Below are positions 1,114 through 47,300 of a DNA stretch of 64,000 bases, in pieces. The position numbers and the translations under genes were made by a program. Numbering within the stretch: the stretch's first letter is position 1; each line of letters starts with the position of its first letter. The notes under the pieces were generated by a model. That model did not search any database, was not told the DNA's origin, and worked only from the letters and a program-made list of their open reading frames with translations. Source of the DNA: Scenedesmus sp. ARA3 (lineage: Eukaryota; Chlorophyta; Chlorophyceae; Sphaeropleales; Scenedesmaceae); contig RWJK01001753.1 of assembly GCA_004335835.1 (NCBI GenBank), positions 100,268 to 164,267 of the forward strand, in the 5' to 3' direction.

Positions 1114-3743
1114 ATGATGCAAGCAGCATCTGCAGTGCTGCTGTTGTTGTTGGCAGCCAGCAGCACAGTAAGCAGAGCAGCACAGACGCAATGTATAGTG
1201 GAGCACTCGCTTGATGGAGGCAGCAGCTACCAACGAATTGGGCTGCTGCAACTAGATGACGACACAAAGGTGAGAGCTGTGCAACATTTGTGTGTTTTGG
1301 AATGCAGAGCATTGTAATGGTTGGCGCCCTTTGTCAGCTGCAGCTAGCGTCGCTGCAGCATCATCATAGCAGCATCAGCAACAGCAAGCAGCCCATGCTA
1401 TGGCGCATCAGGTGAAGCAAGCATAAAGCTATGCCATGTTCACAGCTGTTCACAGCTACCGACACACTGTGCTGCTGCAGATAATAAATGCCGGCAGCAG
1501 AGATCAACAGCTGCTGCAGCAGTGACTGAGCTCACCCGCCCTCCATGCCCCACAGCACCCTACGGCTACCATACTTGCATGCTTTCCTGCATCAATCACA
1601 GCAGAACCAAGCTTACTTCGCCCTTGCTTTTCCGTGTTTCTAGGGTGGCCAATCCGCTGTGACAGGCTCTTACCAGCGGCAGCCAACTACAGCGCAGCAG
1701 CTGGACCAGCTGAAGCAGCTCGTGGAGCAGGATAGGTGCGAGACTCGGCACACTTAACTGTGCTTCAATAACTGCAGGCATCTGCAGTTTGCGCCCTGCC
1801 GCTGTCATACCATAGTGGCCTAACGCTGTCTATCACTTGATTTGCATTCCAGCAGATTTTTGCCTGCAACGCACACTGCCAATACAACTGTTGACGCAGC
1901 ACCCCTCATTCCGCATCGCTTGCCACACCCACTAGGCGTAGTACCTGCTCCTCACATAAGCCATATATCTGTTATTCTCTGATGCCACGGGGACGCAACA
2001 TAACTGCATATATCCATCGTCAATCCTGCAGGCTGTACCTGTGGCGCCTCAAGCCCCAGGGCCAGCCCACCATCCTCACTTCTATCAAAGCAGCATGCTT
2101 CGCGCAGCACCTGCAGCAGCACACGCCCGTGCTGCACCTGGACGCCGCAGGCCACGTCATCAGCAGCCAGCTGGCAGTTCCTGCAAGCCACGATGGCTCC
2201 TGCAGCCCTGCAAAGGCGCTTGCTGAGCTGGCAGTGCTGAAGCATGATGCCCAGGCAATGGCAGAGCCAGTGGAGATGCAGGTGATCTTGATACAATACA
2301 ATACTATATGGTATATAGTTTTGTTTTGTATTGTAATGTGTTGTATTATGCCGTATAGTATATTGTAATGTATTGCAATGGCAGAGCCCGGGGAGATGCA
2401 GTTGATCTGAGGTTTGAGCAGCATGGTGGCGGGGGCGCTTTCCAACATTATTGAATGCACATATGTTGCAAGTTGCAATCACAAAGCGTGCTGTCTGCAA
2501 CTCTGTGTACTGCAGGTGGTGGTGAAGGCGCCTGTGCTTGCGCCGCGCGTGCCTGCAGGGCCAGAGGGCGTCCCAGTGGAGCTGGCTACAGCAGCTGCAG
2601 GTGCGGCCCTTGCAGGATGATCAAAACAATAACGGGAATGATTTGCAGCTGCTGTGTTGGGAGCTAGCGGCTGTCCGGTGTGGTTGTTGTGTGTGCACAT
2701 GCTGGCTCATTGGGTGCTGTAGGTCACACGCGTCTGTGCCCCACTCCCAGGCTTGCCAAGTGGTCCAGGGTAATGCACTCCACATGATGCACCTATTCTG
2801 CCATTTGTGCCTGCAGGAGGTGCACCCAAGCCAGCCGGCCAGCAGCAGCAGCAGCAGCAGGGTGGCCAGGCTGGTGCTGGCGGGCAGCAGCAGCAGCAGC
2901 AGGAGGGTGCTGAGGGCGAGGCTGCTGCCCCGCCTGTCGACAACCGCACCTGGTGGCAGAAGAACTGGCTCTTTGTGATGGCTGGCGGCACATTCGTGAG
3001 TGGCGGTGCTGTGTTTTAAATCAACAGGCCTCAGGGGTGTTGGCTGGCAGAGCAGGGGGCTGCTGATTGTGATAGCGTGCACTTACAAAGGCTGCTGTGA
3101 CCAGCTGGCGCAGGCATGTGAATGCTGTGATCATGTGAGGCAAACCGGCTCAGCTACATTGTGTTACGGCGGAACACGCCAGTGCTGTGAGCTTGCTGGT
3201 GGCAGAAGAACTGGCTGTTTGTGATGGCTGGAGGCACCTTTGTGAGTGCGTGCTGCTGCTGTTACATACTGTGTGCTATTGTAGCAGCTATGAAAACAGC
3301 TATGAAACATAGCCCTGAGGGATCATTGCAGCAGAGCAGAGGGCTGCTGCCTGTCACAGCAGGCACCACACAACAACTGCCAACAACGATGCGAATGTTG
3401 GAGGCTGTGGTTCAGTACCAGCCGCTGGCACAGCAGCGATAGTTGAGGCAAACCATGCGAGTGCCTTGAGCACGCTGGATGCTGCTGTGCTTGCTGTCCA
3501 TGTGCGTGTTGCATGGTCCTACTTGGCACCTCTCCACGTGGACATTCACGTGTGGACATTGCAGCAGTCAGGCACCTGCATTGTTCCTTTTTCTTATGTT
3601 TTCCTGCTTCGTGTGCCTGTGCCGCTGTCCTGCAGGTGTTGAACATGGCCCTGAAAAACGCCATCCCAGACCCGCCCCCTGCAGCAGGAGCTGCCAGGCC
3701 TGCTGGTGCAAGGCCTGCCGGCGCTGCAGCACGCAGGCAGTAG
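1114..3743 (+). CDS. EMC10: ER membrane protein complex subunit 10-like protein
   Basis: Six exons with consistent phase: 1114-1269, 1644-1735, 2032-2281, 2516-2600, 2817-2995, 3636-3743, giving about 270 residues. The order is a signal peptide (MMQAASAVLLLLLAASS), a luminal beta-rich part starting with CIVEHSLDGGSSYQRIG and continuing with RLYLWRLKPQGQPTIL, a Gln/Gly-rich linker, then RTWWQKNWLFVMAGGTF, which fits the single C-terminal membrane helix of EMC10, and a short Pro/Ala tail. EMC10 is a subunit of the ER membrane complex, which inserts transmembrane segments. Similarity is strongest at the start of the luminal domain and at the WWQKNW membrane boundary; the linker is longer than usual. 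Start chosen at the first ATG before the signal peptide (a second ATG follows at once). Introns 3 and 5 each contain a copy of the preceding exon end. Confidence 0.83.
2376..2410 (+). repeat. Copy of EMC10-like exon 3 end, donor lost
   Basis: Repeats 2256-2290, the last bases of exon 3 plus the start of intron 3, about 120 bp downstream. The donor GT after GATGCAG has become TT. The stretch between original and copy is unusually AT-rich, with TATA/ATTGTA-type short repeats. Confidence 0.8.
3197..3241 (+). repeat. Copy of EMC10-like exon 5 end with intact donor
   Basis: Repeats 2951-2995, which encodes the WWQKNW membrane segment, and is followed by GTGAGTG like the true exon. The four differences seen are all third-position synonymous changes (Leu, Gly, Thr, Phe codons). 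Similarity continues into the intron, for example the GCAGAGCAG..GGGCTGCTG and GAGGCAAACC blocks, but there it is much weaker and has indels. Confidence 0.85.
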
Positions 3744-4109
3744 CAGTAGCAGCAGCAGCTGCAGGACAATCCAATGACTTTATTAGTTGTGTGGGTCAGC
3801 ATGGCGAGGTTGGTGGTGCAGCAGTGCAGCAGCAGCGGTCAGCTGTATGGTCCTGAAGATGGGCAGCTCGCAACTGCCGGGCAGCTGCTGTGGCAAGCAG
3901 CCTGTGAGGAGCATGTTTGCTGGTGCCTGCATAAGATGGGCAGCAATCGTTTTGCTGCAAAAAGAGCGATGGTTGCTGCGCAGCTCACATATGCGACCCG
4001 CTTCGTGGTTGAGTGTGGTTGAGTGCTACAGGGGCCCTGAGGGTGCAGGGCTTGGTACGTCACCCTCGGGCCTCTGACCGTTTCCTTCTACTCATGGCCT
4101 AGTATCTCG

Positions 4110-4115
4110 TGTAAC
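4110..4115 (+). promoter_or_regulatory. Probable TGTAA polyadenylation signal of the EMC10-like gene
   Basis: TGTAAC lies about 370 bp after the EMC10-like stop and 85 bp before the next start codon. TGTAA is the usual chlorophycean poly(A) signal. If right, little room is left for the promoter of the downstream gene. Confidence 0.5.
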
Positions 4116-4199
4116 TTGTGTAGATGAACGAAGGAATGGTTTGAGAGGCAGTAGTTCGATTTGATTTCTACGTAGCGGGCTGCTGTCCAATACACAGAC

Positions 4200-5247
4200 A
4201 TGCAGGCCACACACTCCCTAGCATCGCGGCCGCTCCGCGTGCAGCGCAGAAGCGTGTTGTGCAGATGCGAATCAAATGGAGCGAAAAAGAAGGTCGTTGT
4301 GCTCGGCGGCACCGGACGTGTTGGCTCAGCAACAGCAGTGTCCCTGATAGACAACTTCAGCCAGCAGTATGAGATCACAGTAGCAAGCAGAAGCCAGGAA
4401 TCGTTTGACAAGATATGCGAGCTACGGCCAGGTGATTGGCAGTGCTGAGAAGCCTGCAGGCAGTACATGTGCACCTTCATGGCCTGCTGCTGCAGCTGCC
4501 TGCTCATGCAGGGCGTTCTGCTGCTCCCAGTGCTGGCCGCATGCCTAACCTCAGCACATAAAATACGTGCGTATGCAGGTCTTAAAAACGCGCGCTTTGC
4601 TCCTTGTGACATCACAAACAAGGAGTCAATCAAGGTGTGGAGACTGCCTTGCCTGAACTGCAGCTCTGCTGCCAGCCTGAGCGGTCATGGTCCAATGCAG
4701 GGACGTGCATTGCAGCTGCCACGCAAGCAGCAGATGCACGAAGGCGTGCCTAGTGCATTCACAGTTATGTGGCAGTACTGTAGTAGTAATGGCTGCTGAT
4801 GCAAACCATAGTGTGCCCTCTCAGTGCGATAAGTAACATGTGCAGCCAGGTAGCGGTGCCTTGGAGTCTTGTCATGTGCATGAATCATTGGCATGAATCA
4901 CTTGATGAGTCACTTGACAATAGCACGCAGCAGCTGCCAGGATGTGTCGTTGAAGAACAGCAGTTGCACAGCAGACAGTGAAGCCCTGGGAAACACTCTG
5001 CAGCAGTGCGCCAGCCTGGCATGTTTATGCTTGTGCTTTTGCCTGCCTGCGAGCATGCCTGCTGCGCTACACACAGAACTTCAGTTGTGGTCCCTGCGCC
5101 AGTTGATGCTCCTGCAGCACTGAGCAGTCGTGTGCCCACCAGATTATATCTGTAACTGCTGCAACTCAGCGGGGGTTGGAGGCCAACACATTGTGTTCAG
5201 TTCATCTTCTGTGCTGCTGTCACAGCAAGTTGCAACAACACGCGCTT

Positions 5248-5288
<41 letters not shown>

Positions 5289-6850
5289 GCCGCGCCGCCG
5301 CCAGGCGCTCATCGCTGGCACAGACCTGGTGCTTCATACTGCGGGGCCCTTCCAGCACTCCAAGAACTTCAACGTGATTGAGGCAGCGCTGGAGACGAAG
5401 ACGCCCTACATAGACGTCTGTGATGACACACATTACTCACAGGGGTGCGGCCTGTGCTGCTGCTGATGCTGCCAAGTGGAGTTTCCCTGCATGCCGGCCT
5501 GCTAAAAGTGTAACTCCGACTCAGGTTTTTGAACCTTTGCAGCTCCTGCAGAACTCAGCTTGCGCTCACAAGCTATTGCCGCATGCAGCGCGCTGTTAAT
5601 TCACCTCCTTCTCTTCAAGCCTGCTGTCTGCTACTTACTGCTTTCGCGGTCTGTCTGCTGCAGCATCAAGGGCTGCCACGCCCGGGCTGTTGCGGCAGGC
5701 ATCCCTGCCCTCACCACTGTCTGTTTGAACTGCTGGAACTGATTTGCGCGGCTTTGCATTTGTGCTGCTGCAGCATCAAGGGCTACACGACCAGGCTGTT
5801 GCCGCAGGCATCCCTGCCCTCACCAGTATTGGATTGACCTGCTTGAACTGCTCCGTACTGCTTTGAATCTGCGCCTGCTGCAGCATCAAGGGCTACCACG
5901 ACCAGGCTGTTGCGGCAGGCATCCCTGCCCTCACCACTGCCGGCATCTACCCCGGCACCAGCAATGTGATGGCAGCACACATCGTGTCCATCAGCAGAGG
6001 GGAGTACGACGAGAACTGGAACTACAAGCAGCCGGCAGCAGGTGCGGGTGATCAGATGGCAGTGGCTAAAGGGCACTCTGTGCAGTTGTGTTGTGTTGGG
6101 CGGGTGTGTTGGGTGGCTGGCGGTTGGTTGCCGCGTGGTGCTGCAGCTCACATCTGCTTTGTTCCTTCAGTAGAGACTGTCAGTAGAGGCCGTCAGCGGG
6201 GGGNNNNNNNNNNNNNNNNNNNNNNNNNNNNNNNNNNNNNNNGGCGTGCGACGTTAACTGGAACCACAAGCAGCCGGCAGCAGGTGCGTGTGATGGCCGT
6301 GTGATGGCCGTTAGGCGCTTCTGTGGCCTGTTGGGCTTTTGACGATGGGGGCGTATTGTGTTGTGGAGGAAGGGGTGCTTTTGTGCAGACAACAAGCAGC
6401 GGCAGCAGGCGCGTGTCATGATCAGGTGGCAGCGCACAGGGGGCGTATCGTGTATGTGGAGAAAAAGGGTCTTTCGTGCATACCTGGTTGCAGTACGACC
6501 ACACCAAACCTGGTGTCGGCAGCTTGCAACCAGGTGTGCACAAACCACCTAGGTGCATGCTTTAAGGCTGTGGAGGGATGGCGTGGTGGAAAGGGTTGGT
6601 TGGGAAAAGGGTTGGCTGGTTGGGAAAGGGTTGGTTCGGTTGGGGTTGGTTGGCTGGCCGGTGGCGTGCTGCTGCAGCTTGCATCTGTCTGGAGTAGTTC
6701 AGTTCAGCCGGCCACATGCGAGCGTTCATGCAGTTCTTGTGGTTGCTGCTCCTGCTGCTTCAGTGCTGCCTTGACTGCCGCTGGTGCTGCTGGCGCTGCT
6801 AGCATGCGTCACTAGTGTCGCAGCATATATCAACATACACCACCCCATGT

Positions 6851-6899
<49 letters not shown>

Positions 6900-7936
6900 T
6901 GAGGGCATTGAGCCCACCATGCTGCGCTACAGCTACTACACCGCTGGCAGCGGCGGCGCAGGGCCCACCATCCTGGAGACGTCCTTCCTGCTGGCTGGAG
7001 AGCAGTGCACGGTGTACAAGGAGGGCCAGGCGTACCAGCTGCCACCCATTAGTAACAGGCGGGAGGTGGACTTTGGGCCAGGTGGGGACAGCAGAATGGG
7101 TCCGAGTTTAGGTTTCTGGAGTTTGCAAGCCACAATAGGAGGGAGGGTAAGACTCGGGGCTAGTTCAAGAAAGCAGGTTGGGGGTTGCCTTATTGGGCGC
7201 AGGTATTTGGTGCTTGCGCGTCCCACCATCCTGGAGATATCCTTCCTGCTTGCTGGCGAGCAGTGCACAGTCTATAAAGAGGGCCAGGCGTACCAGCTGC
7301 CACCGATTAGTAACAGGCGGGAGGTGGACTTTGGGCCAGGTGGGGACACATCAGGCTGTATGCTTGTGTAGTGCACAGTACTTTGCCAGGGTGTGTTTGT
7401 CAGCAATCATGCACCCTACAAGTTCATCACACACTGCCACGTTTTGCGGCGTTGCAGGCATCGGGCGCAAGGGCGTGTACCTGTACAACCTGCCCGAGGT
7501 CATGTCTGCGTTCAAGTACATCAAGGTGCCTGGCGTGAGTGCGCGCTTCGGCACCGACCCCTTCATCTGGAACTGGGCGATGTGGCTGGTGGCGCGGCTG
7601 TGCCCACCACAGTTCCTGCAAGACAGGAGCCAGGTGGGCTATGAGAGTGTTGAAAGGTTTAGGGTTTTGGGTGTTAGGGCACCGATCCCTTCATCTGGAA
7701 CTGGGCGATGTGGCTGGTGGCAAGGCTGTGTCCGCCGCAGTTCCTGCAGGACAGGAGCCAGGTGGGTGCGTTGGTGGGCTGGTGGGCTGGTGGGGTGGCG
7801 GGCTGGTCAGCTGTGGTTCATTTGGCTGCGGCAATTCAGGGGGCTGCAGTTTGAGCTAAACGTAATGTCAGCACATTGGGCGGCAATGGCACCTTTGAAG
7901 ATAGTGTGTTGTGGGGCTGAGCGCTGATGTGCGTTG

Positions 7937-7967
<31 letters not shown>

Positions 7968-9171
7968 AGGTGCGCTGGCTGGCGCGCCTGAGTGACCCCT
8001 GGGTGCGCATCGTGGACAAGATCATCGGCGAGGCAGTGGTGAGTCAGCAGCGACACGTCAGCAACAGCACAAGCAGCAAGCAGCTAAATAGTTAGCTTCA
8101 TCTGTAGCAGCGTAGCAGCTGTTGTGGTGAGCGACCCCTGGGTGCGCATCGTGGACAAGATCATCGGCGAGGCAGTGGTGAGTGGGGACAGGCAAAACTT
8201 GGGACGCATGTGCCCTGCTGTACTTGGTACGTGTAGCAGTATGCCCTCACATCTGCGTGGCATGGTTGACTTTTGGTACGCATTGTGAACAAGATAATCA
8301 GTGACGCAGCAGTGACGCGCCATAAGCAGCAACCATATCTCCGTTGAACAGCAGCAAGCCGCCACTACTTCTGGCTGCTGCTTCTGTGGCTGCTGTAGCA
8401 GCTGCAGCAGTGACACATCCAGTTGCTGTTCCCGCGGCTGCAGCAGCAGCACCGGTATGCGCGTGGAGGTTGACTTTGACGGCGGCAACAACTTATTCTT
8501 TTCAATCTCAGATTTAAGGAAGCATTTATCAGTTTCCCGCGCCTGCAGGGTAAGGGCGTGGAGGTGGGCTGTGAAAGAGGCAAGACCGAATCTGCTTTGA
8601 TTTAAAAGTTCAGCAAGAAACTTCCATGTTCTGGTTTACCGGATAATCGTGTTTGCAGGGCATGCGCGTGGAGGTGGATTTTGAGGGCGGCAAGAATGCC
8701 AGCGGCATCTACGTGCACAAGAAGCTGCCTGAGGCCATGGGCAACAGCGTGGCAGCCTTTGCACACGCCGTGCTGAGCGGGCAGAGCCAGCCGGGCGTGT
8801 GGTACCCTGAGGAGAAGGAGGCACTGGCGGTGAGCTGTTGTTTTGAAATGGTTTTGAATTGGTTTTGAAGTGAAGAATGTACCACAGCAGCGAGCATTTG
8901 GCGTTACACATGTCATGCTGTTTTGATGTGATGGCTGCGGTGCAGGTGGCAGAGCCAGCTGGGCGTGTGGCAGCCTGAGGAAAAGGATGCGCTGCTGTTG
9001 TCGCATCAGGTGGCCAGTGGATGTGGATGGGCAGAGCTAGCTTAGCGTGGTCCATACCCATTGTTCCACCTGGCGTGCTGCTGCTGCTGCGTGCAATTCG
9101 CCGCGCGTCCCTGCAGTACGTTGCCAAGCGCTGCAGCTGCTCACTGTCCATACCCACTGCTCTGCCTGGCG

Positions 9172-9213
<42 letters not shown>

Positions 9214-9336
9214 GCGCAGGACCGCCGCGCGTTCCTGCAGTACGCGGCCAAGGGCTGCACCCGCTTCGACCTCAACCGGCCTGCCTGGGCACTGGAGAGC
9301 GATGTGAAGCAGCTGGGTGGCCTCATCTACTGGTGA
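4200..9336 (+). CDS. Plastid saccharopine-dehydrogenase-like NAD(P)-binding oxidoreductase
   Basis: Nine exons in phase: 4200-4431, 4579-4634, 5305-5444, 5884-6041, 6899-7081, 7458-7633, 7970-8038, 8659-8829, 9220-9336; 433 residues. Residues 1-30 look like a plastid transit peptide. A Rossmann fold follows with GGTGRVG at about 36-42, then DLVLHTAGPFQ, YIDVCDDTHYSQ and AGIPALTTAGIYPGTSN, all typical of the saccharopine dehydrogenase/carboxynorspermidine-synthase superfamily. The C-terminal half (GIGRKGVYLYNLPEV, DPFIWNWAMWLVARL) fits the catalytic-like domain of plant and cyanobacterial homologues of about 430 residues. The exact reaction is not known from sequence, and true lysine catabolism is not implied. 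Nearly every exon boundary has one or more partial copies in the neighbouring intron, and one intron contains an assembly gap. Confidence 0.92.
5664..5826 (+). repeat. Two decayed copies of the start of exon 4 with acceptor (110-bp tandem unit)
   Basis: The true exon 4 starts at 5884 after CTGCTGCAG. The same acceptor plus about 55 bp of exon occurs at 5664-5719 and 5774-5826, giving a period of 110 bp. The first copy has three amino-acid-changing differences (Tyr to Cys, Asp to Ala, Gln to Arg); the second lacks one base in the Tyr-His codons and is frameshifted. Between copies the TTGAACTGCT element is also repeated, so the unit is intron end plus exon start. Confidence 0.88.
6204..6242. 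other. Assembly gap (39 N)
   Basis: A run of N inside intron 4 of the saccharopine-dehydrogenase-like gene. Sequence on both sides resembles the end of exon 4 (6170-6203 weakly, 6243-6283 strongly), so the gap lies inside a duplicated copy. Confidence 0.99.
6243..6409 (+). repeat. Two copies of the end of exon 4 with donor
   Basis: 6243-6283 repeats the last 40 bp of exon 4 (encoding NWNYKQPAAG), with Tyr changed to His, and keeps a GTGCGTG donor. A weaker third version at 6389-6409 has GC in place of the donor GT. The true junction is at 6041/6042. Confidence 0.8.
6853..6898 (+). repeat. (CTG)n array forming the 3' end of intron 4
   Basis: About fourteen CTG units run directly into the CCAG acceptor of exon 5 (6899). 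Similar arrays precede exons 3 (to 5304), 7 (7937-7969) and 9 (9175-9219) of the same gene. Confidence 0.9.
7222..7339 (+). repeat. 118-bp copy of exon 5 end with donor
   Basis: Copy of 6964-7081 followed by the same GTGGGGAC donor. Seven codons differ synonymously (Leu, Gly, Thr, Val, Tyr, Lys, Pro) and one by replacement (Thr to Ile). The copy has no acceptor of its own matching the exon 5 start, so as it stands it is a partial exon. Confidence 0.9.
7678..7761 (+). repeat. 84-bp copy of exon 6 end with donor
   Basis: Copy of 7550-7633 (from GTDPFIWNW to the end of exon 6) with a GTGGGT donor. The seven differences are all synonymous (Asp, Ala, Arg, Cys, Pro, Pro, Gln codons), none amino-acid changing. 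Confidence 0.92.
8127..8313 (+). repeat. Copies of exon 7 with donor
   Basis: 8127-8177 repeats the last 51 bp of exon 7 (SDPWVRIVDKIIGEAV) and its GTGAGT donor; a Ser codon differs synonymously and the first codon is Val instead of Leu. 8276-8313 is a much more decayed third version with replacements and no clear donor. Confidence 0.85.
8454..8570 (+). repeat. Two copies of the start of exon 8 upstream of it
   Basis: 8454-8491 repeats the beginning of exon 8 (GMRVEVDF) with four synonymous and two conservative replacement differences, without a good acceptor. 8549-8570 is a shorter version preceded by CTGCAG. The true exon starts at 8659. Confidence 0.78.
8948..8998 (+). repeat. Copy of the end of exon 8
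   Basis: Resembles 8779-8829 (GQSQPGVWYPEEKEALA) about 170 bp downstream, with several replacements and no GT donor at the equivalent place. Confidence 0.75.
9099..9136 (+). repeat. Decayed copy of the start of exon 9
   Basis: Resembles the beginning of exon 9 (DRRAFLQYAAKGC) but lacks the acceptor; the true exon follows at 9220 after a (CTG)n array. Confidence 0.7.
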
Positions 9337-9360
9337 AGCCGCTGCAAAAAAGGCGCAGCA

Positions 9361-24251: not shown

Positions 24252-24314
24252 AACAGTTGAGGTCGCTGGCAGTGACTTGCTGCTGCTCGGCACAAGAGCC
24301 AATGCATTGAACTG
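24252..24314 (+). repeat. Coding-like element duplicated across an assembly gap, copy 1
   Basis: Nearly identical to 25055-25117. Read on the plus strand after a TTGCAG acceptor, it gives ELPTVEVAGSDLLLLGTRAN. The two differences between copies are synonymous in that frame (Ser and Leu codons). After the AACTG at the end the copies diverge completely. Confidence 0.75.
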
Positions 24315-24961: not shown

Positions 24962-25004
24962 GTGATCAGGTGCTGGCCTAGCCAAGTGCCCTTGCAAAGC
25001 CGTC

Positions 25005-25054
25005 NNNNNNNNNNNNNNNNNNNNNNNNNNNNNNNNNNNNNNNNNNNNNNNNNN
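25005..25054. other. Assembly gap (50 N)
   Basis: A run of N directly followed by the second copy of the 24252-24314 element, which suggests unresolved repeats or unmerged haplotypes. Confidence 0.99.
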
Positions 25055-25117
25055 AACAGTTGAGGTCGCTGGCAGCGACTTGCTGCTGCTCGGCACAAGA
25101 GCCAATGCACTGAACTG
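25055..25117 (+). repeat. Coding-like element duplicated across an assembly gap, copy 2
   Basis: Second copy of 24252-24314, starting at the last N of the gap. Confidence 0.75.
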
Positions 25118-33847: not shown

Positions 33848-36800
33848 TCATCGCTGCGCAGCAGCTGACTGCGGCTGCTTGGCTGCGTCGCCTGTGCCTG
33901 CGCTGCCGTTGCTGCTGGGTGTGTTGGGCCGAGTAGCTTCCCCGTCAGACACAGCCAGCGGATCGCCATCAATCGTGGTCAGCGGCGGCGCGGACGGCGA
34001 CGCTGCATCAATGTACACGATCAGATCGCCTGCATCCAGGTTATCCGCCTTCACGACCGCCACCTGCGTCACCACGCCTGCAATAGGCGCGCACACAGCT
34101 GTCTCCATCTTCATGGCAGACAGCACTGCCAGCTGCTGCCCTGCGTGCACTGGCTGCCCTGCCTTGACTGACACCTCAATAACAGACCCTGCCATGGGTG
34201 CTCCCACGCTGCCCAGCACTCCCACATCTGCCTTCTCGCGGATGGCCTTCTTGCCGAGTGCCTCAAGGCTGCGCTTGTCAACCACTTCGACAACACGCGG
34301 CACGCCGTTGGCCTCAAAGTAGACCTCCCGCTTGCCGCTGTCCTGCAGCTCGCCCGCTGCCTTGAGCTTGATGTGCGTGCTCACACCCTGCGCAGGCAGG
34401 CGGCAGGTGCGGCGCAGCAGATGCACAGGTGGGTTGGCAGCAGGGGACGCCATGCATACAGCAAGCAGCAGCAGAAGACCAGGCCGTGGGCTGCAGAGCC
34501 CCCCCCCGTTCATTCATCCAGGTCTGATAACAAGCGCCTGGGTTGCTGCTGCACGTACACGCTTCTGTGCACTTCAGCTTTGCCATTTGCTGGTAAAAGG
34601 GGACTGACAGTGACGTTCACTGCGTGCTGCTGAGTGTGCCCTTGCCGCACCTTGCTGAGCTCAATCTCAACCTCCTCATCCTCCCGCAGGGGCACCAGGA
34701 AAGCCCTTGTGGGCAGCTTCTCAATCAGGTCACTGTAGCGCAGCACGTGCGCCTGGTACTCCTCAAAGACCTTGGGGTACAGCGCAGCGCTCAGCACGTC
34801 GCGCGGGCTGACGTTGGCCTTGCCGTAGCGCTCCACCAGGCGCGCCTCCAGGTTGTCCAGCTCCATGGGGGGCATGCTGGCGCCCGGCCGGCCCTCAATG
34901 GTGGGCTTGCCCTGTAAGTAAGGAAAATGGGAGATGGCAGCAGACGGGATGGAGTTACAGTCATTGGAAGACAAGCATATAGTGATCCAGCTCCCCCCTG
35001 GGGAGCATGCTGCGTCTGGCCGGCCCTTGACAGTGGGCTTGCCCTGTAAATGAGGTAGGTTTGTGAGGCAGGCAGTGAAAATAATAGCAGTTGAGAGATC
35101 AGAAGCACCTCATTCACTGTGCGCAAGCTTGCGACGCCTGGGATAGACTGCTGGCAGCACAGCCGTTCCGCCTCCAGCCAAGATAGATCTTGTTTCCTTT
35201 TCCTGCAAGCATGTCCTGCAAGCGTTTCCTGCAAGCGGCGCGCCGCACCTTGAGGATCTTGCTGCGCAGCGGCTCCGGGAAGCCGAAGCTGGGCTGCCCG
35301 ATGTATCCCTGCATGAACTCCACCACGCTGCCGGGGAAGGACAGCGTGTCTGCCTTCTCAACAAGACTGTGCTCGTCCAGGTCGTTCTGCACCATGAACT
35401 GCGCGAGGTCGCCCACCACCTTGCTGCTGGGCGTGACCTGCAGGAGGCACAGCAGGGATGCAGCAGGGAAGCAGCAAAGCAGCAGAATGTCATCAAACGC
35501 ACAAGACAGCAAGTTACACCTTGCAGCACAGGCACAGCTATGATTCAGCACAACTCCAGGATGGCCTTTGGCAGTGTTTCTCAGCTGCCATGCATCCCAT
35601 GCCAAGCATGTGACCTATGAATAGCTGATAGCGCTGTCCTGCAAGCTGCATGCACCTGCTGCTGCAAACACTCCTTTCGTCCTTGCTGCCGTTGCATGCT
35701 GGGGCTGCATGCTGGTGCTGCGTGCTCCCGCGCACCTTGACGATATCGCCCAGCGCCCTGTTGGCTGCCGCGTAGCTCTGCTGCACCTTGCCCCAGCTGT
35801 CACCCAGGCCCAGGCTAGCTGCCTGGAACTTGAGGTTGGTGTACTGGCCGCCAGGCATCTCGTGCTGGTACACGTCGCTGCTGCAGTAGCGCATGTTGGA
35901 CTCAAAGGGCGCATACAGGTCACGCGTGGACTCCCTGCAGGACGACAGTTGGCAGGCAGCAGCACAAGGGATGCATTGTGATATCGGCGCTGCAGCTGCA
36001 TCTACCTGGCGATATTAACACAGCACAGCACCAACCAAGATGACTTGCAGAGTCTGTTGCAGACGTTATAAAGCAGCAAAAGCATGCAGCAAGCTCGCAG
36101 CAAGCTGCGCAGCGCAGCGACGCACCAGTAGTTGCTCAGCAGCAGCATGTGGCGTGGTTTGATGCCGGTGTCCAGCTTGGTGCCTGCCAGCGAATTCACG
36201 ATGGCTCCCATGCTGGGCTGGCTGGTGAGGCCGCTCATGCTGTCAATGGCACAGTCCACGATGTCTGCGCCAGCCTCAGCAGCAGCGATCTGCGTTGCCA
36301 CGGCAGTGCCTGCAAGGCAGCAGAGCACACAGCATGCGACGGTCAGCCGCAGTTGTTGGTATCCATTGCTTGCTCCGCAATGTTTCGTCCTGACCGCAAC
36401 ACATCACAACATCGTCACCCCAGCCGCACGGCGTCATTGCTCCCTTGCCAGCCCGCCTGCCGCACCTGCGCTGTCGTGAGTGTGCACGTGGATCACGAGG
36501 TCGGGGTAGCGCGCGCGCAGCGCCCCCACCAGCTCTGTGGCTGCCTTGGGCTTCAGCAGGCCTGCCATGTCCTTGATGCCCAGGGAGTGGATGCCGTGGT
36601 CCACCATCTGCTCCGCAAGGTCCATGTAGTAGTCCAGCGTGTACTGCAGCAATACAACAAAGCAGTGCGGCAGCATGATGCAGGATATTGTGATTTCGCG
36701 TAAGGGCTCCATGTAGTAGTCCAGCGTGTACTGCCTAAGATAAGAAACAACAGCAGTGCAGCAGCATGATAACGGGATGTGTAAGGCAGGGTAGGAGCGA

Positions 36801-39800
36801 AGGCATCAACAAGCACTCTAGCCACCAGCCAGCTGGATGTCCAGCGCGTGGAGCCGGTGTGTAGCAAAAAGCACACGGCAGCAGACCAGGCACTGGCGAG
36901 ATGATAGACCTGCTCCTGCTGTTGAATGCTCAGGTGTTTTCAGTCCATCACGCCGCTGTGCAGCGTGGGGTTTGCCGACTCACCCGTGTCCTGCTGGGGT
37001 CTGACAGGTCGCCTGTGTAGCAGATGGTGCCCTCTGCAATGCCCCCGGCTGCTGCCACAGAGTCGATTCCAAACTTGAGGTTGTCGATGTAGTTGAGGGA
37101 GTCAAACACGCGGAAGATGTCAATACCAGACACGCGCGCCTGGCGGCAGAAGTCATCGACCACATTGTCAGGGTAGCTGGTGTACCCCACAGCGTTGGCG
37201 CCGCGCAGCAGCATCTGCGGCAGCAGCAGCAGCAGCAAGAGGGTTAGGCAGGGTTGGGCTGGTGTCAGCAGAAGGGTGAGAAGAAGCAGCAGGAGGTGTG
37301 GAGAGGAAAGCAACCTTCCGGCATGCGGGTGCTGCCAGCACTCCTGCGCCTACTGCTCTCGCTGGAGTCGCAACTGCTGCACACTTCTTCAGGCTGCATC
37401 TGCTGCTTCTGCAGCTTGTGCATGCGGTTGTTTGAACCAACACATCTCAACACCCAGCTGCTGCTGCCTGGCCACCCACCTGGAAGGGGATGTTGGGGAT
37501 CTGCTCCCTCAGCTGCTCTAGGCGCCGCCAGGGGCACTCATGCAGGAAGCGCAGCGCCACATCAAAGGTGGCACCACCCCACATCTCAAGGCTGCCTGCG
37601 CCAGCCAGGATGTGTGCTGTGGCTGGCGCTGCCTTGAGCATGTCGTGCGTGCGCATGCGCGTGGCCAGCAGCGACTGGTGCGCATCACGCCTGTTGTTGT
37701 ATGTTGTTGGTGGCGGGGGCAGCAGCAGCGGGTGCACACGGCAGTCAGTCAGCATATGCGTGGCAGCGGCAAACGGCGTGGCTATTGTGGAAGGCGCAGC
37801 AACACTGGGATGGCATGCGGCGCCGTGCCGGCCAGGGCCCTCGCACACAGCCACTGCCACACCCCGCACCACCCAAACTAGCAGCATCTGCTCCTCGCAA
37901 GGCTTGCGGTGCACCTCAGCATATGCCAGCCTGCTTCAAGCCTAACACTCTGCTCATCGCATGCTGTTCCTCTGCGCTCACATGGTGGTGTCTGTCAGCA
38001 GCAGCCCCTGGTGCGCGCGCACCGCCTTGGCCCAGCCCTCAGGCCCCTCCCTCAGGTACACCTCGCGCCAGCCGTGCAGCGGCTGCCCAGCCAGGTCAGC
38101 AGGCAGGCTTGGGGGCGGCGGCGCATACTTGCTGGGTGGGGCGCCGATTGCGCCGGGGTGGTCGGGGCCGTTCACCACCTGCAGCACGACGCACCAAGTA
38201 GTCCGTGTTACAATCTGTTGTTATTGTATAAGGGCGTAAGCTGGCGACGCTGATGTGCAGCTGCTATGCGGTGCTGGTGTGCTGCTTTTGGACTGGCGCT
38301 TCTCTGTGGTAAGCAGGCCGCGCCATATTGCTCCCCTCTGCGCCTGTTGCCAGCAACGCAGCTGCCGCTTTGTTTCCTGCAAGAGGAGAGTTTCTTATCT
38401 TATTTATCCGGCCCCTCTTTCTGCTACCAATGCAGTATGTTTTGGCTGTCGCAGGCCTGCCAGCTCACCATGTCTGCCAGGTACAGCAGCAGCTTGTTGG
38501 CGCGGATGTTGGAGTGGCCCTCAAACTTGAACAGCTCCTTGGAGTGCGTCTCAATGAAGCCAGTGGTGGCAGCGCCAGCCAGGAACACCGGGTGGCGCAG
38601 CACATTCTCCATGAAGGGGATGTTGGTCTTGATGCCGCGGATCTGTTGACAGCACAGATGGCAGCAAGCAGCACACATCACCACATTAGGGAAGGGACCA
38701 CAGCATAGGGCAACCGCACGCTTCTTAACCGCTGCAGTGATTGGTGTAGCAACCGGCGCCGAGCATGCACAGCCAAACAGCAGGCGCACAGTTGCTTGCA
38801 CCAGGTGCAGACTTAAGCCTCACGTGCTGTGGCCTCTTTTACAGGTAACAAGCACTGCACACACATAGGCAACACTATGCCGAGTCAACGCAGCTCTTCA
38901 AAACCCGAATGCTGTGCGTCTGCTGCAGCAACCCTCTCAATCACAGCCAAAGCACCACCAGCAGCAGCAGCAGCAGCAGCAGCAGGCCCACCTGGAACTC
39001 CTGCAGCGCGCGTGCCATGCGCTGCACCGCCTTGTCAAAGGTGGGCGCGGTGGAGATGACCTTGGACAGCAGCGAGTCATAGTAGCGGCTGATGACGTTG
39101 CCAGCTGTCACCGCGCTGTCCAGGCGGATACCTGGGCCGCCGGGCGGGCGGTACGCCTCCAGGCGGCCGCTGTCCGGCTGCAGCAGCAGCACACGCCGGC
39201 CATGGCACAAGTCAGCACACCAGGACATATAAGGTGCACGCAGTGCACTACCAAGACCCGAAATTTGTCACATGTTGTATGCACATGTAGGCACAGCAAA
39301 AATGCCCCTTCTTGCAGCTGCAACTGGTCACTTGGTCAAACATGGTCAAACTCAACATGATGATAGACGTAACGTACCTGGAAGTTCTGCTCGGGGTCCT
39401 CGCTGGTCACGCGGCACTGGATGGCGTAGCCCTTGGGGGCAGGCACTGCCGCCTGGCTGGGCAGGCCCAGCTCAGCCAGCGAGGCGCCACCAGCAATCTT
39501 GATCTGCGTCTGCACGATGTCGATGCCTGTGATCTCCTCCGTGACGGTGTGCTCCACCTGCAGCGCAGAGAAACACAGGTTTAATGATAAAGTTCACATC
39601 AAGAGCAGTGGCAGCTTGGACGCGAGAAGTGCAGCCATGTTGTGCGCGAGACACAGGAGGCGTCCACACTAGCAAGTGATCCGCTGCGATAAAGTAACAC
39701 GTGTGATACACGCAGCAAACACACTGATCACGGGACAGGTGAGAGCAGCACATGTCCAGAGTTGACTGTTGCAAGTCGCCGTCCTGCTGTGGAACAGAGC

Positions 39801-42800
39801 AGCCAGAAGGGCCGCGCATATGACAGCAGGCTGCGCTGCGCATTCGGCGCATGTCGCTGCTGCTTCTGCCCTGCCGAACGTTTGCAGATGTCTGCTGCTG
39901 CTGCCGCTGCTGTGCCGTCGCACCTGCACGCGCGGGTTGACCTCCAGGAAGTAGTGCTTGCCGTGCTTGTCCACCATGAACTCAACAGTGCCTGCAGCAG
40001 CAGCAGCAGCAGGAGCAGCACACAACACAACCAGCAAGACACACAGCAGCAGTCAGCACCACTCAAAACAGTAGCCCATCCAAGAGCCCCAGGCCGACTT
40101 GCCGCTGCATGCCTCTGCACCATCCCCCAGCGTCCATTGCTGCCGCAAGTGCTGGTGCAAGTTCACCTGCGCCGCTGCTCTGTCCAGCTGCGTCTTTGTA
40201 CTGCAAGTGCCTAGCCTGCTGCTGTGTGCTGGTGCGCAGTGTGCTGCCGCCTGGCTGCTGACCTGCGTTCCTGTAGCCCACGTGCTTGGCCAGCTTCACT
40301 GCATCAGCATACAGCGCATCTTTGATGCCCTGGGCCAGGGAAGGCGCCGGCGCAATCTCCACCACCTGGGTTGAAGCAGAGTGCAGGGGAGGCACACGCA
40401 AGCAGAGCATGGTCAGTGGCAGTGAGCAGCAACGCAGGCGGGACCCAGCGCTCAGGCGTCTACTGCATAGCGCACATGCGCACAAACGTGCAACAAACAT
40501 GGGATATGACGCCTTAGGGCAGCGCTGGCCCGTGCTGCCCTGCCACTGCTGTGTGTGTCCATGTGCAGGTGCAGCGCAAAGTTCGCTGCCCCGCCTTGCG
40601 TACGCTGCTGCCCCTGACGCTGTCTGCTGCTGCCGCTGCGCTGCTCTCCCCTCTACACATTCTGCTGCTGCTGCTTGCTGTTCACACCTTCTGGTGGTGG
40701 CGCTGCACGCTGCAGTCGCCCTCATGTCGGTTCACCACTACTACTACTGTTACTGCGCCCTGCTGCCCTCCACCCTTGAATGTATGCACATGCAAAATTG
40801 GAGAGCACCGGCCGGCGCTGCAGAATCAGCAGCCTGGCAAGCTGGCGCCCCTGGTGCTGCACACCGCTGCCGCTGCACTGCTCTTGCCACTACGCAGTTG
40901 CAGCTGTCTCCTGGCTGCTGCCGCCGTGCCGCACCTTCTGGTGGCGGCGCTGCACGCTGCAGTCGCGCTCGTAGAGGTGCACCACGTTGCCGTATGAGTC
41001 AGCGATGATCTGGATCTCGATGTGGCGCGGCTCCTCCACATACTTCTCCACAAACATGCTGCCATCGCCAAAGGCGGCCTTGGCCTCGTTGCTGGCGCGG
41101 TTGAACAGGTCAACCATCTCAAAGTCTGCACACAGAGGGGCGCAAAGGTCAAAAAAGAGATATGAGCATATCCTATGATGACAGGCACAGTGTGTGGCAC
41201 GTCCAGGCTGCTGAACAGGCCCAACATCTCATAGTCTGCACGCGCAGGCCCGCAAAAACAGACAGACATGTAAGCATAGAACTAGCGATGTGAGCATAGC
41301 AGTAGATGACAGGCACTCTAAGCTGCACCCCCTCATTCAATTGCTGCAGCCACCCGCATGCCCTGCTACTACGCTTCATCTACATGCTGTCACCTGTCAT
41401 ACTTGCTGCACTCTGCCGCCTGCCGTTGCTGCTGCTCACCGTTGCGCACCACCCGCATGCCCCTGCCTCCACCACCCATGGAGGCCTTGAGGATGACAGG
41501 GTACCCAGCCTCCTCAGCAAAAGCCAGCGCCTCCTCTGCTGACTCAAGCGCCTGGTTGGTGCCCGGCACAATCGGCACGCCGCATGCAGTGGCTGCGCGC
41601 CTGGCAGCAGTCTTATCACCCATGGCCTGTGCGGACACACATACAGCAGCAGCAGCAGCAGCAGCAGCACACGCTGAGTGGCTGTGGCAATTATGCTATG
41701 GCACGTGGGCTTTGCGCCAGCTGCTACTGCGGCCGTGCCTCTGCTGCTTGCCTTTGCCAAAAGCTGCGGCGGCAGCACCCGCTGGCTGTGGCAGCTGCCG
41801 TGCCTGCTGCGTGTCACTGGCGCCAGCACTCCAGCCTGCTCAAGCCTGCAACACTTGCTGCCGCCTGGTTGGAGGGCAGCTGAGGGCCCCCGGCAGCTTC
41901 GATGGAACATGCAGTAGGTGTACCTTGCAATCCGCATCTCCACAAAGCTGTCAGAAAACGCCACATTCTTGGTGCAAGCAAAGTGCCGGGGATACAGACG
42001 GCAGGCGTGCAAGGAAAAAGCTGCAGGCGCTGCTGCTGCTGCTGCTGCTGCTGCTGCACACCTCGATGGTCTCCGCCTTGGGCCCGATGAACACAATGCC
42101 CTCCTCCTCGCAGCGCCGTGCAAAGGTGGTGTTCTCAGACAGGAAGCCGTACCCCGGGTGGATTGCATCCACCTCAGCCTCCTTTGCCACCTTGATGATC
42201 GCCTCAATGTCGAGGTAGCAAGAGACCGGCTGCATGTCTGAGTTGCCCACTTGGTACGACTCGTCTGCATTGTACCTGTGGGACTGCAGGCGGTCTGCGG
42301 GGCTGTACACGGCCACCTGCAAGGGGATAGCAGCAGCAGTCATTCAGCCACGTCGCGGTCAGCCACGTCACCCCTGCTGCTGCCACTGCTGCTGCTGCTG
42401 CTGCTGCTGGTGGCTAGCTGAGAGAGCCCGAGTGTGGCTGCTGGACTGCCACTTATAGGTTCAGGGAACGCAAATGTGGAAGCCTAGACGCATAATCTGC
42501 ATCCACTGTGAAGAGGGTTTCTGATGCTCACCGTGCGCAGGCCCAGCTCAGTGCCTGCCCTGAACACGCGGATGGCTATCTCTCCGCGGTTGGCGCACAG
42601 GATCTTCTGAAAGGGTACCTCACCCGTGTGGAACGTCTGCAGGAAGAACTGAATTAGAGTGCCTGAACACTTCCACCGTTTTGGGCGTTGGTGCCGTGCA
42701 CGCACCTCCAGGCCATCGTTGTGCGACACATGCGCTGAGACATCTAGAATTGGAGTTTTAACTGTGCTCGACACTGAAGGGCCTGGCACTGAGAGCCCTG

Positions 42801-42945: not shown

Positions 42946-44069
42946 CCTGGGCAGATTAGTGGGGCATGCCCGAGTTAGGTACCCCCGCCCACAACCAGGT
43001 TGGCAGGTATATCAGGTAGGAAGTGCTCGAGGGTGCAGTGGGACGATCCTAGCCTGGTGACCCGCCGAAGTACCATGTTAGCCATGTGCAAGGGCTTTGG
43101 ATGGGAAAGCCGCAGCGCTTCTTCCGCCCATTGGTGCTGGTTTCGCTTTTATTTAGCTACAAGATCGCATTAATGGGACTTGGGAAGCCTTCGCTGCCGC
43201 AGCGACGGGTGACAACTGACTCCTGCTGGCAGCAACCTCCAGCACGATACACAACCACAGCAGGCTCGTTCGCATCGTCCTCCAGGTATGGTGGTCTCTG
43301 TTCAATACCAGTCTTGGGGTTTACAAGTTTCAAAGAGGCTGAAGAGCTGCAGCATTGGCCTAGGAATGTTCTCAGCCCTGACAGAAGCCTGCAGTCAGGA
43401 GCTGCAATGATCAGCAAACATCCTCTTGTGGTGGTGCAGATTAGCGCACACAGTGTACCACCAAAGAGGTATAGAATGCTGAATTCTGACCGACTGCAGC
43501 CAACGTGATGAACTTTGACAGCCAGCAGCGGGCTGTGGGACTCAGCAAACTTTGGGCGGCCCAAGCAGCAGCCACCAAGCAGGAATGCCTGATATCAAAA
43601 GGGGTTCGGCCCGCATCAACTGCTGCCTCATGCCTCCTTATCAGCGCATTGCCAGCCCCAATTGCCACCTGACCGCTGCCACATGCAGCTGCTGCACACC
43701 ACACTATGCACCCGCCTTGTCTATGAACCCATCACTGATGTGGCACATCCCAGCAACACAGCCTGCTGCTGATGCAGGCTGTCAGAGTCTGGTGCCAAAC
43801 CATGACAAAGCCATGTTCCACCCCACAACACACCACGCGCATACAGAACAGGCGAACCCATCTGCATGAGGATGGCTGTGTCGCCAGCAGCTGCTGCTAT
43901 GCAGACACCAGCAGTTATCCACCTGCGCTCGCTACTTGACGCAACCAAACCCTACACATGCAGCTCCCTCACATGTGCAGCCTTTGACCAGCACTCTCCC
44001 TCCTCTTGCAACCAGCACGCACCATCACTCCCAGGACCCTCCCACCACTACATGACATGATAGCACCAC
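42946..44069. other. Promoter side of pyruvate carboxylase and 3' flank of IGPS; no gene seen
   Basis: 43.5-44.07 kb is A/C-rich on the plus strand, matching the G/T-rich sense strand of other 3' flanks. A plus-strand frame at 43086-43508 gives no known protein. Confidence 0.45.
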
Positions 44070-44293
44070 TCACGCAAGCGACAGCAGCTGCTTCACGCCT
44101 GCCGTGGGGTCGCCCTGCTTCACCAGTGCCTCACCCACCAGGATGGCCCCCACCCCCGCAGCCTGGCAGAAGGCCACGTCATCAGGGGTGAAGATGCCTG
44201 ACTCGCCCACCATGAGGATGCCGCGCCGCTGCACCTCCTGGCCTGCCGGGCTCTCCATGATGCGCTGAGTCAGCGCCAGGTCAACCTGACGCA

Positions 44294-44344
<51 letters not shown>

Positions 44345-47300
44345 GGAGGAGGTTGTCACGTAAAGCGCGATAAGCTTGCCCGCACCTAAAGGTGCCCAGG
44401 TCCTATGGTTGATTTCCAGCAGGTCCTCTTGAAGGCTGCCACACCAGCACAGGACTAGCACAGCACCAGCACAGCACTATCATCAACAATGCTTTTGAAC
44501 GCATCGCAAGGAACCCACCTTAAATGTGCCCAGGTCCCTGTTGTTGATGCCCAGCAGGTGGTGCTCCAGCCCCTCCAGCTGCAGCACACGCGCCAGCTCA
44601 GCCTCAGTGTGCACCTCGATCAGGCAGCACATGCCCAGCGCCTTGCACGCCTTCATGAAGTATGCCAGGTCCTTCAGCAGCAGCAGCAGCAGCAGCAGCA
44701 GTGGCAGCAGCAGCAGCGGCAGCACCAGCGACTCAACAAGCAGGTTTGGCTATGGCCCATGCCGTGATGAGTTGCTGCTTGCATGTGTGCAAGCGTAGCA
44801 GTGGCCAGTGCGGTCATCCCTGCTGCGCCATCTTGTTCAAGTAGCCTTGTGCCCAACAGCTGACTGGTCTAGACAAGCCAGATAGCAACCGGGCCATATG
44901 CAGTACAAGCAGCAGCCAGCGCTGCGCCCGGCTGCTGCGCAAGGCAGCTTCAGCGACACTGGGCTGCACTGCACCACCTGCGTTCAGGCGCGATGCTGGC
45001 AACAGCTGAACATCGCATGCCTGCAGCTGCCGACCCCACCACCACACGCCCCACACTCCCAGCCCACACACCTGGTTTGGCAGCACAGCAGCCGGACCCT
45101 CTCAACCCACAGCACCGCCTGCCACTAGGATGACAGATTATGTTCGCCTCAATCCCCACCCACGCACCTGGTTTGGCAGCACTGCCGCAATCAGCAGCAC
45201 CGCGTCCGCGCCGCTCACGCGCGCCTTGAATATCTGGTACGCCTCCACAATGAACTCCTTGCACAGCAGCGGGCAGCTGACCCCAGCCGCCTTGATCTTC
45301 GCCAGGTTGTCGAAACTGCCCTGGAAGAACTTCTCATCAGTGAGCACGGAGAGGCAGGCTGCACCGCCTGCCTCGTAGGCTGCTGCGATGCGCACTGGGT
45401 CAAAGTTGGGCTGGATGACACCCTTGCTGGGGGAGGCCTTCTTGACCTCCGCGATGAGCCCCGGCTTGCCTGCAGGCAGGGAGCGGCGTGAAGAATGTTA
45501 CTAGAGTCAACACTGAAGTGTGCGTCCTGGCACCATCTGATTTGGTGTGTGCAAAGCATGTAGGCAAGCTCAGCTGCAGGAGTGGCTAGACAGATGTCTG
45601 CAACTGCAATTGGGTATTGAAAGGCATGGGCGGCACAGCAGACTGCTGCACAGCTGCAGGCATCCAGTACTACTGCAGAGGGCTGATAGCCCAGCGGCAG
45701 GCTGCCAGACTGAAGCGTCTGCCAGCAGCAGCAGCTGTAATGACGCCACAGCAACGTCTAACTGGCCGCACCTGTCTCCTTTGCCTTTGCTAGGATGGCT
45801 GCCTTGAAGTCCCTGGCAGGCGGTGCCTGGCGGGCCAGCGCCTGCAGGGCAAAGCACAGGAGCGCAGCGCAAGCATCAGCCGCAGCACACCAGCACATCA
45901 CGCACACCAAGCATGCTCGCTGGTGACACAACGGTGCAAGCCTACAAGATTGCATAGCGCAGCTGCACCGGCAGGCGCACTCTCAATCCACCGGCTGCAT
46001 GCTGTGTTCTGCACAGCTTTGATTTCCTATGTGCTGTTTGTCAAGCGGCCTGAACCAGCACTGCAGCACCACTGAGACACTGCTGCGCTGGCTGCACTTT
46101 GCCAAAAGCACTGTATAGCCGCCCCATCCTGGAGCCTGCTGCTGCATGTGCCTGCAAGCTGCCTCTGCAGCCAGGCTGGCCCACCTGCGGCATGGGCAGC
46201 GGCTGTGCTGCTGCCCATTGTGCTGCCGCAAACCAACCCAACGCGCCTGCTGCACACACCAGACATCAGACTGGCTGCGCCACCTGCAGCATGGGCAGAG
46301 GCTGTGCTGCCGCCCATTGTGCTGCCCCAACCCAACCCAATGCTGCAGCTGCAGCCTGCTGCACACACCAGACACCAGCCTGGCTGCCCCACCTGCAGCT
46401 GTGGCAGCGGCTGTGCTGCTGCCCACTGCTGTCCCCCACAATCACACCGGTGGTTGCAGCTGCAGCCTTCTGCATTCGCCAATCATCTCAGCCTGTCACT
46501 TGTCGCACCGCGTACCTACAGCATGGCCAGCTGCTGCTTCTCCCTGAAAGACTCGATCTCTGCACTGCTGCTCCACACTATTGCATATGCCTGCAAGCTT
46601 CACCTCTGCAGCCTATCTCTGCAGCCTAGCCCCACCTGCAGCATGGGCAGCGGCTGCTTCTCCCGGAAGGACTCGATCTCCTTAGCCTTGTACCACACGA
46701 TCTCCTCCAGGATGTTGATTGGCTGGTTGATGTCTGGCAGGTTGCCCACCTTGTAGCCCATGGCAGGGCCACACCTGCAGCAGCAGCACAGCAGGTGTGT
46801 TCAGCAGCCAGCAGCATGCAGCTTGCAGATGCGACGATGACTCAACTGGTGTGGCAGCTGCGTCATGGGCATGTAGCCGCAGCCAGTAGGTGGCCAGCAG
46901 CATGCAGCATGTTGACTAGCTAGACTTGGCAGCTGCATCATGGCCACAGGGTCAGCAGCCTGCTGACATTTCCACATTTGCTTGCTCAAAGGCAGACGCT
47001 TTCTGCTGCACGCTGCTGCAGTTCAGGCAAGAGGTGCTGCTGTGCCGAGCCGTTCCTGCTGAGAGCCCAACTGCACGATGGCGCCTGTAGCAAGCAGCTG
47101 TTGGCCGTGCATGGCAGCACAAAGCTATGCAGCGTGCTGTGCATGTCGCCAGCTGCTGCTGCTGGTGCTGGTGCTGGTGCTGCTGCAGCTGCTGCTCTAC
47201 AGGGAGCACCAGCTGCTTACGGCTGTGTGTCCTTGCCAAGGGGCGGCCTCCTGCGGATAGACACCTCTCCAGACGCCTGCACACCAATGTATCAATTGGC

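Follow-up and report, generated by a model that had tools for sequence, protein, structure and literature searches.

Why do genes of a green alga carry, within their introns, pieces of the exons that adjoin these introns? The question is raised by a 64-kb window (the whole stretch of DNA analysed here; GC content 57%) from Scenedesmus sp. ARA3, in which self-BLAST returned 23 direct local matches less than 2 kb apart and no inverted local matches. An earlier note on the window had described duplicated segments spanning exon-intron junctions in five named genes and had offered two explanations, namely a special tendency of the genome to duplicate junctions or many small false duplications in the assembly. 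Partial exon copies were indeed found in four of the five genes (SDH-like, IGPS, pyruvate-carboxylase-like, and EMC10-like).

The SDH-like gene (4290-9333, plus strand) belongs to the saccharopine dehydrogenase NADP-binding family, as indicated by its match to protein P0001, by tblastn, and by PF03435. Its exons were fixed by tblastn with P0001 at 4290-4436, 4557-4634, 5302-5445, 5885-6049, 6898-7083, 7457-7636, 7967-8038, 8659-8829, and 9220-9333; the beginning of the first piece and the boundary at 4557 are estimates. The hand-spliced protein of 405 aa is identical to Tetradesmus obliquus OEZ86_013684 (P0001, 433 aa) except for one residue, which sits at a guessed splice junction, and the genome is accordingly that of T. 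obliquus or of a very close relative; the coding region of this gene, the one to which the P0001 comparison applies, is thus intact. P0001 uses the outermost exon copies and lacks the inner ones, which agrees with the earlier proposal that the true exon is the outermost copy. The same gene, with its exons fixed in this way, upholds the proposed polarity of the copies: those of exon 3' ends with the donor lie downstream of their exons (starting at 6243, 7222, 7678, 8128, and 8948), whereas those of exon 5' ends with the acceptor lie upstream (5665, 5775, 8454, and 9099).

All copies in the SDH-like gene lie on the plus strand. Exon 5885-6049 is preceded by two copies of its 5' end with the acceptor, arranged as contiguous units of approx. 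110 bp (5655-5884; self-BLAST and exon-vs-intron BLAST), and is followed by a BLAST-detected copy of its 3' end with the donor (6243-6294) and, by eye, by a more decayed third copy of this end near 6390. An N run (6204-6242) immediately precedes the copy at 6243, so an assembly gap lies in the spacer of the pair 6001/6243. BLAST also detected copies of 3' ends with donors downstream of exons 6898-7083 (7222-7348, 93% identity), 7457-7636 (7678-7766, 92%), and 7967-8038 (8128-8183, 98%), the last of which has a weaker third copy (8262-8317, 64%). Exon 8659-8829 has a copy of its 5' end upstream (8454-8491, found by self-BLAST and below the 42.1-bit cut used for the exon-vs-intron search described below), a weaker one at 8549-8586, and a BLAST-detected copy of its 3' end downstream (8948-8994); the 5' end of exon 9220-9333 is copied at 9099-9141 (BLAST). 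The copy at 7222 alters T223, which is invariant in six aligned homologues, and is therefore unlikely to be a working allele; in the copy at 7678, all seven changed codons are synonymous. Directly before the latter copy stands TTAG, and the live exon contains GTGAGT 15 nt ahead of the point homologous to it; an in-frame splice dropping five residues is therefore possible on paper.

The EMC10-like gene (PF21203; plus strand, copies within 2255-3263) shows two copy pairs in self-BLAST, 2255-2288/2375-2408 and 2950-3015/3196-3263. On the minus strand, three pairs were found by self-BLAST in a gene at 34856-40985 (34856-34923/34986-35055, 36621-36679/36708-36770, and 40604-40738/40841-40985). Two of its exons match PF00289 and PF02786, a domain set from which we take the gene to be pyruvate-carboxylase-like; its exon at 36.6 kb matches PF00682 below the cut-off of that profile. 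The IGPS gene (44073-46773, minus strand; PF00218) has exons at 46637-46773, 45774-45841, 45167-45470, 44523-44674, and 44073-44284, with boundaries set by eye, and this exon set is 88% identical over 100% of its length to protein P0122. The protein search listed no T. obliquus protein for IGPS that could have served as a cross-check from a second assembly of that species. Its copies occupy 46143-46680 and 45051-45188 overall and, like the gene, lie on the minus strand: self-BLAST revealed that the 3' end of exon 46637-46773, with its donor, is repeated approximately four more times at 46143-46560, partly as a 99-bp array and with one of these copies reaching 42.1 bits in the exon-vs-intron BLAST, and that the 3' end of exon 45167-45470 is copied at 45051-45092. 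By eye, the 3' end of exon 44523-44674 was recognised in a decayed copy at 44385-44430, which BLAST did not recover.

Local duplication is not peculiar to these genes. The genome assembly searched comprises 87.27 Mb in 1,567 contigs, from which nineteen plus eight 10-kb stretches were taken at arbitrarily (not randomly) placed positions, two of them on the contig of the window. At least one direct match less than 2 kb apart was present in 22 of the 27, and a stricter cut (at least 85% identity, offset below 450) left 16 of 24 stretches positive, in addition to the window. The set of 24 omits L012, L015, and L016, which hold arrays or coding repeats and were likewise excluded from the pair sets and from the mismatch-phase, homology-end, intron-side, spacer, random-placement, and intermediate-copy analyses. 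Over all loci and the window, 210 direct matches stand against 10 inverted ones, nine of which are palindromes. A strong tendency to local direct duplication that extends beyond the window is thus supported, and at both cuts the matches are spread over most stretches rather than concentrated on GC-rich special chromosomes, insofar as this can be read from an assembly that does not resolve chromosomes. This much of the first explanation in the earlier note holds; the junction-specific part of it is not required, as set out below.

Two loci deserve separate mention. L021 (C373:1-10000), fetched as a suspected homologue rather than at an arbitrary place, proved to be a diverged paralogue of the ValRS-like gene in L019 (an exon matches PF00133), and L021 has no local duplications, compared with 12 direct matches in L019. 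C373 was therefore rejected as a ValRS haplotype, being an old diverged paralogue without local repeats. On the minus strand of L022 (1750-2480), the 5' end of a Myb-type exon (PF00249) is copied twice ahead of that exon, at distances of 134 and 240 bp, and each copy bears an acceptor.

How strictly do the copies keep to exon-intron junctions? A search of exons against introns in the style of the chicken study discussed below was applied, at a threshold of at least 42.1 bits, to three gene models picked because copies had been seen in them, namely the SDH-like gene, IGPS, and part of an aminotransferase gene (PF00155) in L023, which we take to be AlaAT. All 12 matches were proximal and direct, none was distal, and no match of at least 20 nt appeared in shuffled introns of the three models (20 shuffles per gene). 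For 11 of the 12 matches, the source lay no more than 3 nt from the exon border, and for the other it lay at 10 nt. Among the introns of these genes, selected as they were for copies, 9 of 15 hold a partial copy of an adjacent exon (SDH-like 6/8, IGPS 1/4, AlaAT 2/3). That the unit always spans a junction, as the earlier note had it, is therefore true of all 12 matches, but much of this regularity is expected by chance. When tandem duplications with the observed offsets were placed randomly along the three gene models, 45% spanned one junction, 42% were confined to introns, 6% contained a whole exon, and 6% lay within an exon; of those with at least 30 exonic bases, 74% spanned exactly one junction, and a result of 12 out of 12 then has a probability of 0.027. 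The one-junction geometry can thus be attributed to the length of the unit relative to exons and introns, together with selection against the approximately 26% of exon-bearing duplications that possibly disrupt the mRNA, and a special junction-spanning mechanism is not required. Young copies confined to introns are rarer than the model expects (an informal count noticed one in these genes, 9050/9146), and this scarcity fits introns that diverge on both sides.

The spacing of the copies is regular. Self-comparison of approximately 308 kb yielded 70 deduplicated local direct pairs (at least 85% identity, at least 35 nt, offset below 450), 64 with a spacer of more than 12 bp and six as contiguous tandem units, an arrangement that also occurs in stretch L026. 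Copies lie at approx. 110-140 bp or double that distance, and the 10th-90th percentile of the 70 offsets (108-256 bp) accords with the 90-270 bp given in the earlier note. The offsets cluster at 100-175 and 200-275, with a single pair in the 175-200 bin. Among 25 pairs at an offset of 200-280, a decayed intermediate copy exceeded the best of 20 shuffles in 12 (approximately one is expected by chance), and 9 of these 12 intermediates sit at 95-140 bp, which suggests that the double distance often represents two units. Many junctions show one copy, and arrays of 3-5 copies occur elsewhere.

A copy-spacer-copy layout is also what an insert between direct repeats would look like, and a mobile or intron-making element inserted with a long target-site duplication could in principle have produced it. 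However, both spacers that were tested are unique in the genome, and the repeats, at 30-153 bp, far exceed usual target-site duplications, which are far shorter. When spacers and flanks were searched by BLAST, the matches listed were mostly CAG/CTG noise. Such an origin is hardly to be expected. The idea that the spacers are a patchwork of nearby sequence was rejected as well, since in 38 spacers the coverage by nearby 12-mers was no higher than in control intron or random sequence, a result that likewise speaks against a mobile element.

The ages of the copies bear on whether they exist in the genome at all. Among 59 pairs of at least 60 nt, identities form an unbroken range of 72-96% with a bump of 11 pairs at 92-94%, and this continuous spread points to many ages; no pair reached 98%, i.e., newborn long copies were not seen in this set. 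The bump, together with the mostly synonymous differences of younger pairs and the mostly unalignable introns, is what would be expected if two diverged haplotypes or strains had been joined without collapsing their overlap, so that allele A stands beside allele B (heterotype false duplication). Assemblies are known to contain false exon gains of this sort (PMC9516828). The published T. obliquus assemblies differ in size (207.97 Mb in 2,705 contigs vs. 107.7 or 108.7 Mb in 1,368 scaffolds; PMC5552973, PMC5255914), and this roughly twofold gap hints at separated haplotypes. Moreover, each of the window's two N runs (6204-6242 and 25005-25054) is followed immediately by a copy (6243 and 25055, respectively). 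The second of these copies, which begins right after its N run, belongs to a 97% direct match 803 bp apart (24252-24314 vs. 25055-25117), probably an assembly overlap at the gap.

Nonetheless, two alleles would give two copies only, whereas arrays of 3-5 copies at differing stages of decay are found, and the range of identities is far wider than the bump. Several copies contain a stop, an indel, or a change of an invariant residue, and are thus not simply working alleles. Ns occur in one of the 70 spacers. Furthermore, the SDH-like gene occupies a single locus in the assembly, and for four other regions no long second match at allelic identity appeared among the matches listed; on the same grounds, a diverged haplotype or homeologue located elsewhere was rejected, the mosaic-haplotype idea having been tested through this one genome assembly. 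As a general cause, false duplication therefore appears quite improbable, and the corresponding suggestion of the earlier note is disfavoured by the graded arrays; it survives in the sense that some pairs may be artefacts, given the N gaps that abut copies, and this is likelier for single young or gap-flanking pairs. False heterotype duplication resembles the algal case in placing local duplicated exon pieces inside a gene, and differs from it in that the algal copies are multiple and decayed, with Ns in one of the 70 spacers.

If the copies are real, it might be supposed that tandem duplication followed by neutral decay, with no exchange between copies, is sufficient. The places at which homology ends are informative here. 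Homology often extends 4-10 nt into the intron and ends there, and among 43 gap-free pairs at 88% identity or more, a donor motif with the exon inside lies within 14 nt of a homology end in 28 pairs (29 ends), compared with six ends of the opposite sense; for acceptor motifs, no surplus exists in this set (18 ends vs. 25 opposite). Residual intron-side homology was absent in 22 of 26 donor-type pairs (global z of 2 or less; pairs 89-98% identical), and the mean intron-side score was no different from that of the exon-side control. The homology-end, intron-side, and codon counts all used gap-free BLAST blocks, a choice that favours blocks stopping at splice sites, and 17 of the 70 pairs are gapped. 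Single loci vary: at L027 345, homology continues into the intron with more mismatches, and in the L026 3560-4180 array the intron parts are, by eye, near-identical and seemingly more similar than the exon part.

The contrast between exon and intron is clearest in a four-version array at a helicase exon (PF00271) in L014. Its exon parts are 91-96% identical over aligned columns, whereas its intron parts reach 69% in the first pair and 45-54% in the remaining five (42 ± 6% for shuffled sequence); in this array, the exon parts change more slowly than the intron parts. In addition, site 17 separates copies 1 and 2 from 3 and 4, whereas sites 65 and 80 unite 1 with 4 and 2 with 3. No simple tree accommodates both groupings, which makes exchange among the copies likely, as judged from a few sites in one array. 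Decay without exchange is at odds both with the L014 introns, which have diverged far beyond the exon copies, and with the donor pairs lacking detectable intron homology.

Codon changes point in two directions. In 25 framed pairs with 509 codons, 67 changed codons were synonymous and 37 were not (0.644), compared with a synonymous share of 0.36-0.47 in a simulation of neutral copies beside an exon accepting only synonymous changes (four mutation settings). By hand count, the share was 53 of 69 in pairs whose BLAST block is at least 91% identical and 14 of 35 below that value; two rows for exon 5885 are binned below 91% by BLAST block, and binning by the short piece actually counted gives 54/73 and 13/31. 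These figures cover 25 of the 26 listed pairs, L023 2662 having been dropped since the peptide used extended past its block, and include the L014 5884/5659 row (five synonymous, none not), which compares two intronic copies; in all but the SDH-like, IGPS, and AlaAT genes, the live-exon member was assigned by geometry or guess. Codon counts replaced the concentration of mismatches by phase because changes in the same phase can be second-position changes. Old copies thus look neutral, and younger ones carry too many synonymous changes, with single pairs deviating (L026 2906 and L006 276, each 0/3 synonymous). The older pairs behave as the neutral-copy null predicts and so favour plain duplication and decay; the excess in younger pairs opposes it, and overall it seems unlikely as the full explanation. 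Candidate causes of the excess are the copying of diverged alleles, selection on copies owing to their ability to convert the exon, or an allelic artefact in some of the young pairs.

The synonymous excess, together with the donor motif retained at the edge of many copies, might also suggest that the copies are functional alternative exon ends kept by selection for alternative splicing. However, the starts of the copies vary within the exon, the AlaAT acceptor copy meets a stop when read in frame, and several copies carry the lesions listed above (stops, indels, and changed invariant residues), which makes this explanation very improbable.

The reading we prefer, and hold with a little more confidence than doubt, is recurrent local tandem duplication ("exon stuttering") that is tolerated in introns, with the exon parts of the copies kept similar probably via gene conversion. 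It builds on the local direct copies in most of the sampled stretches, their geometry, the graded multi-copy arrays, and the one array with slower exon parts and a mosaic. According to this reading, the genome undergoes, or underwent, recurrent and strictly local direct duplication in units of approx. 110-140 bp, often as two units. The primary event would be a tandem duplication, arising through break repair or replication slippage. Duplications across a single exon-intron junction would persist, since normal mRNA can still be made from the outermost splice site, and the inner copies would remain in the intron with their donor or acceptor. Copies would accumulate to 3-5 per junction and then decay, their intron parts diverging past recognition, whereas the exon part would stay recognisable through purifying selection on the live exon combined with sequence exchange (gene conversion or unequal exchange). 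Some findings count against recurrent duplication with exchange. The missing intron homology of most donor pairs is not predicted by plain tandem duplication, and the synonymous excess is not produced by gene conversion alone; the lack of any pair of at least 60 nt at 98% or more, the L026 intron pattern, the scarcity of young copies confined to introns, the small number of mosaic sites, and the N runs abutting copies also weigh against it.

Stuttering of this kind has been described by Hron et al. 2026 in introns of chicken dot chromosomes, where lateral exon parts with a splice site are copied through the adjacent intron (PMC12954441). There, the source lies within 1 base of the border in more than 90% of cases, the exon parts measure 20-187 bp (median 36), and the number of copies ranges from 1 to 44 (median 4); 190 of 5,572 dot-chromosome introns are affected, and 190 of the 236 affected introns are on dot chromosomes. 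Intron length polymorphism between individuals is one of the three main features in chicken; the authors also mention gerbil genes (data not shown) as another instance and raise repair or non-crossover gene conversion as speculative causes, and the main text of PMC12954441 contains no mention of a plant, alga, protist, or insect. As in chicken, the algal copies are direct, imperfect, partial copies of exon edges with a donor or acceptor, located in the adjacent intron and with their source at the border, and the coding region, as judged in the SDH-like gene, is intact. Unlike in chicken, they occur in most sampled stretches rather than on special GC-rich microchromosomes, usually number one to four at 110-140 or 200-270 bp instead of forming large clusters, and consist of short regular units in which homology often ends at the splice consensus; the 9 of 15 algal introns come from three genes picked for copies, and the rate is not comparable with that in dot-chromosome introns. 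Judged by sequence features, the algal case appears to work like chicken exon stuttering, with agreement in the core features tested, and it is not a proven member of the class.

Further systems offer partial parallels. A study of a potato RdRp gene (PMC4974935) reportedly describes intron gain by tandem genomic duplication; local duplication is the primary event in both, whereas the SDH-like copies lie inside existing introns, are absent from P0001, and create no new intron. CST-guided Pol alpha-primase is reported to generate small tandem duplications at break ends (PMC8355091) and might be one origin for short direct duplications in tandem, although the unlike spacers between the algal copies would not be explained by it.

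A bolder version of the preferred reading, which we regard as possible and yet rather doubtful, is that exon stuttering is genome-wide in T. obliquus, with gene conversion between the live exon and its intronic copies, and that untranslated copies are kept coding-like because a broken copy, being able to convert the exon, is a hazard. If true, this would provide a second, independent lineage for exon stuttering, linked with DNA repair in general instead of with bird microchromosomes. More generally, if the copies are real, the intron instability reported from birds also spans the genome of a green alga that is easily cultured and sequenced; its mechanism could be tested there, with a bearing on intron growth and on the origin of alternative splice sites, and gene models of this biofuel alga may contain errors at places where copied splice sites are in competition.

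Several other repeats were observed. At 57873-58810 and 63195-63996, the window contains three colinear direct matches (74-87% identity) approx. 5.3 kb apart, which represent a larger dispersed duplication, and L014 8340-8386 is a short dispersed repeat with at least 37 other places in the genome at 88-100% among the matches listed. CTG/GCT microsatellites in the SDH-like and IGPS genes (5244-5287, 6853-6895, 7938-7967, 9172-9213, 44291-44343, and 44675-44729) lie at 3' splice sites or within approximately 15 bp upstream of them, and these may represent the same instability at its short-unit end.
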